A stretch of 64,000 nucleotides of DNA from an uncultured Atopobiaceae bacterium. GTDB taxonomy: Bacteria > Actinomycetota > Coriobacteriia > Coriobacteriales > Atopobiaceae. The notes beneath the pieces were generated by a model that did not search any database, was not told the origin of the DNA, and saw only the letters and a program-made list of their open reading frames with translations. This document shows positions 26,238 through 48,823 of the stretch, in pieces (position 1 is the first letter of the stretch; every line of letters begins with the position of its first letter). Made by a program: the position numbers and the translations under genes. The stretch spans positions 124,001 through 188,000 of the forward strand of contig CANQOF010000001.1 in assembly GCA_947625405.1 (NCBI GenBank), written 5' to 3'.

Positions 26238-29200
26238 CTACGCTCGGCGGCGGGGGCGGAGGAGGATGACGGCCAAGACGAGGAGCGCGATGCCGGTTGC
26301 CATGAGGGCTGCAGGGAGCGTGAGCGGGTTGTCGTCGCCCGTCTTGGGGAGGGCGTTCGGGTTCCGGGGCGTGCTGTGGTGCTCGTTGGAGTCTGAGCCA
26401 GTGCCGGGGGTGCCGGGCTGGCTGCCCGGGCTATCCGGGTTCGATGGGTTCTCCGGCGTGTTTGGGTTGCTCGGGTTGTCGGGGTTATCCGGGTTGTCCG
26501 GCGTGTCGGGGTTGTCTGGGTTATCCGGAGTGTCTGGTGTATCCGGGTTGTCCGGGTTGTCGGGCTGCACCGGGCCCGGAGGCGTGGGGCCGGGTGCGGG
26601 CTTCGCGTTCGTGCAGACGAGGGCCGCGGTCGCGTTGGATTCGATCGTGCCCGAGGATCCCGTCGTGCCGTCCGCCTTCCAACTCGGCACGAGGCCGCCG
26701 GAGTCCGTCTCCTGGGCCGTGAACGTGGTCTTGGCGAGCAGGTTCCCGAACTTCACGGATTGGCCGGCGCTCAGCGTGAACGTGATCGAGCCGTCCGCAT
26801 CCGGCATGGTCATGCCCTCCGCCGGCGGAGCGATCGGCGTGAGCGAGCCGATGCCCTCCCCTTCGAACTCGTAGGAAATCGCCCGGCTGTAGGGGTTGCC
26901 GTTGATGTCCGTGAAGGTGACCTTGAAGGCAAAGGGGCCCTCGGCGCTCGTTCCCGGCGCGAGTTCCTTCGCCACCGTGAGGAAGCCAGGGTCATCCACG
27001 ACGAGCGCTGGCGTCTCGACCACGGTGGCCTCGTTGTCGATGGAGATGACGGCCGCGTTCTCGACGGAGCCGGCGGTGAAGGCGCTCTCATTCACCTCGA
27101 GCGTGACGGTGACGGAGCCGCGCTGGCCCGCTGCTTGCTTGCCGAGATCCCACGTGACGACGCCGTGGTAGTCGTAGGGCTTGGCCACGTCTGCCGGCAG
27201 CTCGCCGCTCGAGTCATATGAACCCTCCCCGCTCGCCTCCTTGAAGGTGAAGCCCATGCAGATCGGGTCGTAGATGACGACGTCCTTGGCCTCGGAGGAG
27301 GTGTTCTCCCAGGCGATCGTGTAGGTGATCTCCTGGCCCACGAGCAGGTTCGCGTTCTCGTAGACACTGGGGAGCTTGTGGTTTCCGCCGAGGATGTTGT
27401 TGCAGGTGATCGTCGTTGCGGGGCTCGCAATGGTGCCCGAGATGGCTCTTGCAGAGATCTCCGCGTTGGCATCGTCGCTTTGCCAAGCCGTGATGGACTC
27501 GCCGATCGTGGTTTCCTCGATCCTGTACTTCAAGCCCTCGGGGAGGTTCGGGATGGTGAGCGTCTCGCCGTCCTCGAGGCTCACCGTCGCGGGGTTGCCC
27601 TTGAATGTGACGCTTTGGGAACTCGAGCTGCCGGGCTTCGTGACGGTGCCCGCGATCACGCTCGCTTCGAGCTCCTCGAAGTCGCTGGCATTCGGGAACT
27701 GGATGGTGAAGTCGAAGGATGTGCCCGGAATGGATCCGCCAGATCCCACCAGCACCCTCTTCGTGATGCTGAGCGATCCCGTCGTGTAGGCGTTCGTGAA
27801 GGTCACGGCTTTCGTGGCGCCGCTCGCGATGATTGCGGTGGCGACACCGTCGACCGCTTCGGTGGCATCGCCGGAGACCGTGGCCTTGTAGCCGGGCACG
27901 GCCGTCTCGGAGATAGTGATGGCGCCGTCAGGTAGTCTCGCGATCGTGGCCGTCTCGTCGCCGGTGAGCGTGAGCGTAGCCGCACCGTTCGTGAAGTCGA
28001 TCTTTGTGGGGCGAGTCGCGCTTGGCGTGCCTCCGGAACACGTCACGGGCCTCGGCCCTGTGATCGGCGTGCTTGCTTGCAGCGTGAACGTGAAATCGCG
28101 CGTCGAATCCGTGCCCGTCACCTGCTTCGTGAGTGCCAGTGCGCCGCTGCTGAACGTGTTCGTCACTACCACGTCCGCGCTGCCCTCGTACGGAACGCTC
28201 GCGGTCATTCCGCCTTCGGCCGCAGCGCCGCCCGAATAGCTCGTGCTGTAGCCGTAGCTCCTATAGTCGGCCTCGCTCACGAGGTAGTCGCCCGCGGGGA
28301 GCGCGAGGAACGTGGCCGTCTGGCCGCCGGAGAGCATGAGGGTCACGGAATTCTCCCCGATCGTCACCGGATCCCCACCGCCGATCGAGTAGCTGTAGCC
28401 CCGCATGCTCGCCGTCGGGTCCGCGGGCGAGACGGTGATGGCGAACGACTGCCCCTCGACGCCACCACCAATGACCTGCTTCGTGATCGTGAGGGAACCC
28501 ATCTTGAGTGAGTTGGTGAAAGAAGCGGTTTTGGTCTCGCCGGATGCGATGATCCCCTCGGCATTCTCCGAGCTCGTGCTGTAGCCGGCGCACGGCTCTT
28601 CGGTCACGACGTATTTGGCACCGGCGGGGATGCCGGAGAGGAGCTGGCTGCCGCCGTTTCCCAGTTCGAACGAGGCCTTGCCGTCCTCGAAGGAAACGCC
28701 ATTGCTGGTACCCGTGAAGACTTTCCCGCCAGCCAGAGTTATCCCCACGCTGAACGTGAACTTCCGGCTAGTCGTCACGCCATCTGGCAGGCCCGAGACG
28801 GTCTTGGTCACCTTGAGGGCACCTGGATCAGGCTCGCTCACTTCCACGCTCTGGGACGCGTTTGCCGCTTGGAGGTCTCCATTGCCCTTGAAGTTGATTT
28901 GCACCGACTTCGAGCCCGAGGTGCCTGCAGGTGCAGTGATGGTGAGCTCGACGACATCATCGGAGCCTTCGACCGCCTTGAAGCTCGCATCCAAGCCATC
29001 GGCGCCTGTGACGGTGAAATCATCCGGCGAAATCGACCCAAGCGGAGAATCGTAGGCAACCAGATCCCCGCTCGCGCCGTTGTACATCACCTGGAGCCGC
29101 ACGGTAACTGATCCCCCCGGATCCAAGGTCAGCGTGCCGGCTGGCCCAGAGCCGCTCGCATCGAGAATAGAGATCGTCGGCATTGCCTTGTCGATGGTGA

Positions 29201-47488: not shown

Positions 47489-48700
47489 CTAGAAGAGTGG
47501 CACGTCGCCTGCCAGAAAGGCGCCGAGCTCGGAGAAGGCACTCCCTTCCCAACCCGCACCCTGCGGGCCCACGACGAGGCCCCTGGCGTTCGGATGGGCA
47601 TTGAGGAAGGCCTCGAGCCCGCCCATGCCCTTCACGGCACCGCTTTTTACCTCGATCCCCACAAGGTGGCCGCCCTTCTCCAAGACGAAGTCCACCTCGA
47701 GATTCCCCTCGCGCCACCACGAAAGGCCGAAATGCTCGGCCTTCGAGCGCCTGAGCAGCTCCGCGCCCACGGCACTCTCGACTATGCGTCCCGCCCTCTC
47801 GGCCTCCAAGTGGGAGATGCCCGTCGCCGATTGCCACACGCACGTGATGAGGCCCGTGTCGAACGAGATGAGCTTCGGGGAGCTCGCGCGCCTGCGCACC
47901 AGGTCATGGGCGTAGCGCTGAAGGCCGCCAAGCAATCCCGCCTCGCTCAGAAGGTTGAGGTAATGGGCGATGGTAGTGGCGTTTCCCACATCATCGAGCT
48001 GGCCGAGGAGCTTTCGATAGGAGATGGTTTGGCCGGAACACGAGGTGCCCAGTCGAAAGAGCCGCTCCATGAGGACGGGTTTACGTACTGGCTCGAGGGC
48101 CACGACATCCCTCGTGATGCTCGGGCGAACCACCGCCTCCTCCATGTAGTCGAGCCAGCGCCCCAGCTCGCCGACGAGCGGTGCGGCTCCGGGGTAGCCC
48201 CCATAGCGCAGATACTCGTCAAGCGAGAATCCGAAGGCCTCCCGGCACTCGCCAAAGCTCCATTGGGGGCTGCGAATCACTTCGAAACGACCGGTGAGGC
48301 CCTCGGCGAGATCACGTGCGAGGAGGAGCGCCGACGAGCCACTCAGGACAACGCGCAAGTCAACGTCGCCCATCGTGTCTTGATCCCAAAGTTCCCGCAC
48401 GTAGGAAGCCCATTGGGGTACGGCTTGAATCTCGTCGATCACGAGAAGGGCGGGAGTGGCTCCGTTTTCCGTGAGATAGCGCGCCTGCTGCCACTGGGCG
48501 CGAATCCAGTCACCCGTAGCCGCGTAGGCCGGCACCTCCACGTAATGCGTGGGATACTCCACGCTGCGAATCACTTGGCGAATGGCCGTCGACTTTCCCG
48601 TCTGACGAGGCCCGGTGAGGATCTGGATCCTTTGCCTCGGCCCCCGAATGCGCTTCCTGAGCACCGAGGCACATTCACGCTCATAGCTCGGCAAGGCCAT
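47489..48700 (-). CDS. AAA ATPase with C-terminal DUF4143 (archaeal-type ATPase family)
   Basis: A 403-residue protein of a widespread but functionally obscure family. Residues about 25-160 are an AAA_14 ATPase domain: Walker A ILTGPRQTGKSTAIRQ, Walker B ALLVIDEIQAVPQW, sensor RVVLSGSSALLL. The C-terminal part is DUF4143, with a PD-(D/E)xK-like core in WWREGNLEVDFVLEKGGHLVGIEVKSGAV, so a nuclease or DNA-binding role is possible. An intervening winged-helix segment (TISYRKLLGQLDDVGNATTIAHYLNLLSEAGLL) is typical. ATG at 48700 has TAGGGGATC upstream. The promoter region is covered by 22-bp tandem repeats. Confidence 0.85.
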   Translation of the reverse strand: MALPSYERECASVLRKRIRGPRQRIQILTGPRQTGKSTAIRQVIRSVEYPTHYVEVPAYAATGDWIRAQWQQARYLTENGATPALLVIDEIQAVPQWASYVRELWDQDTMGDVDLRVVLSGSSALLLARDLAEGLTGRFEVIRSPQWSFGECREAFGFSLDEYLRYGGYPGAAPLVGELGRWLDYMEEAVVRPSITRDVVALEPVRKPVLMERLFRLGTSCSGQTISYRKLLGQLDDVGNATTIAHYLNLLSEAGLLGGLQRYAHDLVRRRASSPKLISFDTGLITCVWQSATGISHLEAERAGRIVESAVGAELLRRSKAEHFGLSWWREGNLEVDFVLEKGGHLVGIEVKSGAVKGMGGLEAFLNAHPNARGLVVGPQGAGWEGSAFSELGAFLAGDVPLF

Positions 48701-48725
48701 GGTCGATCCCCTAATCGCCGCATAT

Positions 48726-48823
48726 ACTGAACACTTTTCTTGGATCTAGTGAACATTATAGATGGTCGTACTGAACACTTTTTATCGGTCTACTGAACAC
48801 TTTTTATCAGCCTAATGAACAAC
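48726..48823. repeat. four and a half 22-bp direct repeats upstream of the AAA/DUF4143 gene
   Basis: Units start at 48726, 48748, 48770, 48792 and (partial) 48814, exactly 22 bp apart. All share TGAACA; three full units share ACTGAACACTTTT, and the last two full ones ACTGAACACTTTTTATC. Unit two is the most diverged and carries the -10-like sequence. Two helical turns per unit puts every TGAACA on the same DNA face. Confidence 0.85.
48755..48760 (-). promoter_or_regulatory. TATAAT -10 element of the AAA/DUF4143 gene
   Basis: A perfect TATAAT on the minus strand, 55 bp upstream of the start codon and inside the second 22-bp repeat. No good -35 hexamer is found at the proper distance, which would fit an activator- or repressor-dependent promoter built on the repeats. 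Confidence 0.45.

Follow-up and report, generated by a model that had tools for sequence, protein, structure and literature searches.

Immediately upstream of the gene for an AAA_14 - winged helix - DUF4143 protein of an uncultured Atopobiaceae bacterium there is a tandem array of short words, which we predict to be the protein's own (autogenous) operator, with a probability of about 0.85. The array recurs, in place and in phase, before homologues in 20 phyla and is nearly absent elsewhere in the genomes, and the letters of its word covary with the recognition helix of the very protein that it precedes. Judging from these sequence features, it is very probable that the gene is switched by its own product, and probable that this occurs by repression. 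The window referred to below is the whole stretch of 64,000 nucleotides that was analysed.

The array and its putative promoter

The five TGAACA words (TGTTCA in the direction of the gene) are separated by four steps of exactly 22 bp each, and the word nearest to the gene lies 28 bp from the A of the ATG at 48700 (Table 1). Tandem Repeats Finder picked up the same array independently (48725-48821, period 22, 4.4 copies, score 94). The pattern TGAACA-N16-TGAACA, with one mismatch allowed, has four matches in the 1.72-Mb genome, every one inside the array, and the reversed control pattern has none; given the frequency of TGAACA in the window (20 on both strands), about 1e-14 runs of five in phase would be expected. 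The array is thus real, in phase and unique in its genome. Of the "four and a half units" counted in the earlier note the period stands, but the count is better given as five words or 4.4 periods. The overlap of the array with a perfect TATAAT, also described there, is borne out as well, with a single base shared between the hexamer and word 2; no matching -35 box was found at the window's promoter, which we therefore call putative. The strongest tandem repeat that Tandem Repeats Finder reports in the window is a degenerate GGGTTGTCC-type repeat at 26446-26565, with periods of 9, 18, 27 and 36.

Table 1. The array, its putative promoter and the gene downstream of it (positions in the window)
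Feature	Position	Strand	Basis
Predicted operator array, five TGTTCA words (TGAACA on +), 22-bp steps	48728..48821	-	sequence, Tandem Repeats Finder, conservation in G004
Word 1, nearest to the gene	48728..48733	-	
Word 2, shares one base with the -10 hexamer	48750..48755	-	
Word 3	48772..48777	-	
Word 4	48794..48799	-	
Word 5, missing in the G004 orthologue (four words there)	48816..48821	-	
Putative -10 hexamer TATAAT	48755..48760	-	sequence; kept in G004; no recognisable -35
AGGGG, putative ribosome-binding site	48708..48712	-	sequence
AAA_14 - winged helix - DUF4143 protein, 403 aa, PDC-S01 family	47489..48700	-	Pfam, PADLOC, AlphaFold
AAA_14 ATPase domain, residues 23-151	48248..48634	-	Pfam
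Winged-helix region, residues 208-279	47864..48079	-	AlphaFold secondary structure
Turn and recognition helix, residues 236-253; apparent word-determining residues D236, V238, A241, T242	47942..47995	-	AlphaFold, covariation
PD-(D/E)XK-like motif EVDF...IEVK, residues 335-352	47645..47698	-	alignment

The protein

Pfam finds both AAA_14 (2.7e-22) and DUF4143 (1e-27) in the protein, and the PADLOC model PDLC04791 of the family PDC-S01 matches it over residues 6-385 (6.1e-145). Across 61 aligned rows the Walker A and B motifs are intact (GPRQTGKS and DE invariant or nearly so; G30, R32, Q33, G35, K36, D89 and E90 invariant), and in the PD-(D/E)XK-like motif E335 and D337 are invariant and E350 and K352 nearly so. 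In the AlphaFold model (pLDDT 90) a helix-turn-helix with a wing sits between the ATPase and the nuclease-like part, with helices at residues 208-220, 228-235 and 241-253 and strands at 257-260 and 276-279. The neighbours of the gene in the window are metabolic and transport genes.

PDC-S01, in which an ATPase is described as joined to a PD-(D/E)XK-type domain, was the fourth most common putative defence system of prokaryotes in one survey, with some 39,500 instances; like most such systems it still awaits validation, and we treat it as a very common candidate family for defence against phages (PMC12988326). In the literature on DUF4143 we found no published description of an operator or of autoregulation for PDC-S01, and searches on DUF4143, on AAA_14 with autoregulation, on DUF234 and on the operator sequence returned nothing on this operator.

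Near relatives and paralogues

In the related genome G004 the orthologue (93% identity) occupies the same location, between mntP and arcC, and the array, with four words, lies phased and in the same place before it; absence of the array upstream of orthologues had been named in the earlier note as a refutation. Over the 110 bp compared, all 24 word bases are identical as against 57 of the 86 other bases (the -10 hexamer is also conserved), and the third codon positions of the two genes are 81% identical. The similarity of the intergenic DNA ends at the array: upstream of it the G004 DNA (L255:3080-3290) shows no relation to the window's and contains many short inverted repeats, and the flanking genes are syntenic. 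This synteny also speaks against recent movement, and we have discarded the possibility of a mobile element for that reason.

The congeneric genome G002 (L256:2885-3055; L043:1500-1575) carries a three-word TGAACA array with 22-bp steps ahead of just a 57-codon 3' remnant of the gene, so that an array is able to outlive its gene. Locus L014 of G002 and the Atopobiaceae record L053 share the same upstream region. A match in G078 proved to be an unrelated 22-bp repeat (TGAACAGAGGGACGGTGGCTGG).

The search for TGAACA arrays at other DUF4143 genes that the earlier note proposed had a divided outcome. There are none at the other DUF4143 genes of this genome, because each of the close paralogues has a word of its own, in the same place and register; TGAACA/TGTTCA does reappear in L052, L054, L236, L244, L247 and L267, where the helix reads GNATT. 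In the first four of these loci the TGTTCA words form inverted pairs, whereas the window and G004 keep direct words only. We take the window's clade to be an unusual direct-repeat variant, in which the inverted partner half-sites would have decayed to leave four or five direct words. As to the paralogues, none of 20 close pairs within one genome shares an operator word; since 2.2 sharing pairs would be expected (p 0.10), any insulation between the copies is left as a suggestion.

Arrays upstream of other homologues

The upstream regions of homologues came from 80 loci found by a peptide-pattern scan of genome contigs and from further loci found by genome searches, with start codons picked by rule. 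The peptide patterns of the scan included the recognition helix, and this batch is consequently biased towards T241. In its commonest form the array alternates TTTACTCAATA and TATTGAGTAAA with a 22-bp period directly before the start codon. A self-match score of at least 9 at 21 or 22 bp within 110 bp upstream is reached by 66% of 123 homologues, compared with 0.6% of shuffles and 1.6% of GC-matched windows, the best lag being 22 in 46 of the homologues and 21 in 18; in some homologues a clear array is missing. At least two TACTCA words within 110 bp occur in 52 of the 74 genome-contig homologues as against 6 of 4,939 control windows, and the homologues with TACTCA span 20 named phyla together with unplaced records, although many of the loci come from MAGs and could have been given the wrong phylum. 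Across 16 genomes most copies of the canonical dyad lie at the gene's own operator and few elsewhere. A regulon was considered and set aside, the dyad being nearly confined to this place; one stray dyad, in G532, falls inside pth.

While the usual spacing of the words is 21-22 bp, it is often 32-33 or 23 bp in remoter DUF4143 subfamilies, whose tested members are PDC-S01 too. In these AT-rich upstream regions a self-match score of 11 is reached by 12 of 21, as against 11% of Markov resamples. Arrays of 32-33 bp (three helical turns) with other words precede the gene in L170, L171, L172, L177, L180, L183 and L186; a 23-bp array of GCGAAACGGTAGCGT-like units precedes DUF4143 genes in L181 and L182, other members of the phylum; and a PDC-S01 gene on a 61.6-kb IMG/VR contig (L188:2000-3283) has a TTTACTCAATG half-site just before its start codon.

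Where a promoter can be recognised, the array lies on it. Sigma-70 promoters, recognised at 10 of 12 matches, were found before 30 of 132 homologues (4.7 expected); in all 30 the array covers at least part of the -35 to +20 interval, and a word lies on the -10 itself in 23. Repressors typically occupy this same interval, and for that reason we favour autorepression over activation as the probable mode of action.

A member of the family in Thermus thermophilus merits separate mention. Its gene, which matches PDC-S01, is reported to increase 6.6-fold in the joint presence of plasmid DNA and Argonaute (PMC4406477), a response that loosely fits a phage- or stress-type switch, which the earlier note had raised as a possibility. 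In strain HB27 the PDC-S01 gene (L278:14854-16074), apparently TT_P0211 as judged from its position and domains only, has a dyad, TGAATGACTATCATTCA, over its start; there is no tandem array at this gene, the single dyad standing alone.

An apparent word-to-helix code

If the protein reads its own array, changes in the word should go together with changes in the reader. In the common register the half-site can be written T-b2-b3-b4-b5b6, usually followed by NTA (T-G-T-T-CA in the window), and the start of the recognition helix as QL-236-D-238-GN-241-242-T. Our covariation set comprised 147 non-redundant homologues, 134 of them with a word called by a procedure that fixes the register and restricts positions 5-6 to CA or AG. 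Base 2 is G with D or E at 236 (47/48) and A with other residues (79/86); bases 5-6 are AG with R, K or Q at 238 (30/33) and CA with A, V, S or T there (97/101); base 3 is T in 10 of 10 cases with A241 as against 2 of 122 with T241; and base 4 is G with A or S at 242 in 16 of 20 cases as against 6 of 114 with other residues, being T otherwise. Among 325 variable columns of the alignment, 238 is the most informative for the whole word and 242 the second (V238 and T242 in the window). In the AlphaFold model the covarying residues lie at the start of the second helix of the helix-turn-helix.

The words mostly follow clades and their independent changes are few. When independent pairs are pooled on a tree built without the helix region, they agree by 10 to 0 (p 0.002), and those for A241 with T3 by 4 to 0; tests of single positions are underpowered, with at most about four informative pairs per position. 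When a four-residue rule drawn from the first set was applied to a second, it returned the exact word for 18 of 19 non-duplicate homologues (mean 4.2 and maximum 10 in 2,000 shuffles); this batch is not strictly blind, since its upstream regions were already printed when the rule was coded. In a strictly blind third batch the rule gave the exact word for 4 of 8 homologues (shuffled mean 1.3, p 0.006). All four failures have helices of the type D-K/R-T-D/E, with the word TGATAG predicted as TGCTAG, so that base 3 alone was wrong. Taken together, these analyses support the view that the specificity of the array word tracks the protein's own reader helix. The rule resembles a natural specificity code, carried by the winged helix of an AAA+ protein, with which the word might be predicted from the protein sequence.

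A predicted autogenous operator and its alternatives

According to our model, the short half-site would be read by the winged helix that separates the AAA+ ATPase from the DUF4143 nuclease-like domain, with letters b2, b3, b4 and b5b6 contacted via residues 236, 241, 242 and 238 respectively. Half-sites at whole helical turns would line up the protomers along the same side of the double helix across the promoter, where they might bind cooperatively. Once enough protein had been made its own transcription would be blocked, and exhaustion of the protein or a change in its state would lift the block. The proposal in the earlier note that the protein regulates itself through its winged-helix segment is thus supported by the phased array in the orthologue and most homologues and by the covariation of the word with the protein's own recognition helix. 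It is conceivable, though rather unlikely, that the array is in addition a sensing docking site, at which an idle ATPase-nuclease oligomer would be held on one face of the chromosome until titration, DNA damage, foreign DNA or a change of nucleotide state set it free, at once derepressing the gene and liberating the active nuclease; subfamilies would change word and reader together, and several such systems could coexist in a cell without cross-talk.

Other explanations of the array have to be weighed. Its resemblance to iterons and origin boxes (22-bp direct repeats, a winged helix and an ORC-like AAA+ fold) might suggest a loading site for an AAA+ assembly engaged in a DNA transaction such as replication or mobility, the promoter overlap being secondary; yet the array lies on a 198-kb contig among housekeeping genes, its orthologue in G004 is syntenic, Pfam detects no Rep domain and every recognisable promoter is covered, which makes this a very improbable account. 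We consider about as improbable the idea that a separate host regulator of defence genes binds the array. Such regulators do exist, RptR (PMC12255303) being one, and binding by the protein itself is here a prediction from sequence; against this, the site is nearly unique in each genome, the same word precedes the gene in 20 phyla and its letters track the protein's own recognition helix.

The intact PD-(D/E)XK-like motif, beside a domain that seems to read the array, could also mean that the words are a sequence-specific target of the nuclease domain, for self-control or for telling self from foreign DNA. Cutting at a conserved chromosomal site would however call for protection, of which none was seen, and viral contigs show no evident enrichment of the dyad (36 stretches among 2.9 million IMG/VR contigs, a raw count); we would be most surprised if this were the explanation. 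Least credible of all is a role of the repeats in an RNA leader, as an attenuator or riboswitch-like element. The array would indeed be partly transcribed, but its RNA folds worse than shuffles (z +1.74), Rfam gives no match, and the direct words, their phasing at whole turns and the presence of some of them upstream of the -10 are more in keeping with DNA; with its poor fold and no Rfam match, the RNA element was dropped.

An autogenous operator that is both dedicated and predictable would provide a biochemical handle on PDC-S01, namely a DNA ligand for each protein. It would also serve to report whether the protein is on or off, and to test for the stress or phage that releases it.

Comparison with known systems

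The window protein, like the tested members with other periods, matches PDC-S01 and has the same fusion of an ATPase with a PD-(D/E)XK-type domain. Among structures, the top Foldseek matches are the Orc1/Cdc6-DNA complexes 2qby and 2v1u, with TM-scores of only about 0.3, and in a second comparison 1w5t gives a Z of 14.2 (rmsd 3.7 over 263 residues). As in Orc1/Cdc6 on origin boxes, an AAA+ domain is followed by a winged helix, here predicted to bind DNA; the window protein differs in its C-terminal DUF4143/PD-(D/E)XK part and in having its array at the gene's own promoter. The best Z values of the second comparison belong to the archaeal ATPases PAB2304 (2qen; 16.4, rmsd 3.2) and SSO1545 (2fna; 16.1, rmsd 3.7), with about 260 residues aligned and rows that cover residues 1-290 only; we know of no operator described for either.

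Plasmid iterons (R6K pi, P1 RepA, F RepE) are likewise tandem repeats of about 22 bp read by a winged-helix protein that regulates its own synthesis, as we propose here. The window protein, however, has no Rep domain (Pfam shows AAA-type families and DUF4143 only), its array is apparently chromosomal and placed over a promoter, and the canonical PDC-S01 form alternates inverted half-sites every half period. Comparable too are the operators of toxin-antitoxin and restriction controller systems, short phased repeats over a gene's own promoter that are read by its own product, which is the arrangement proposed for the array. They differ in that here a single protein would combine reader, ATPase and nuclease-like domain, and in that reader and word co-diversify.
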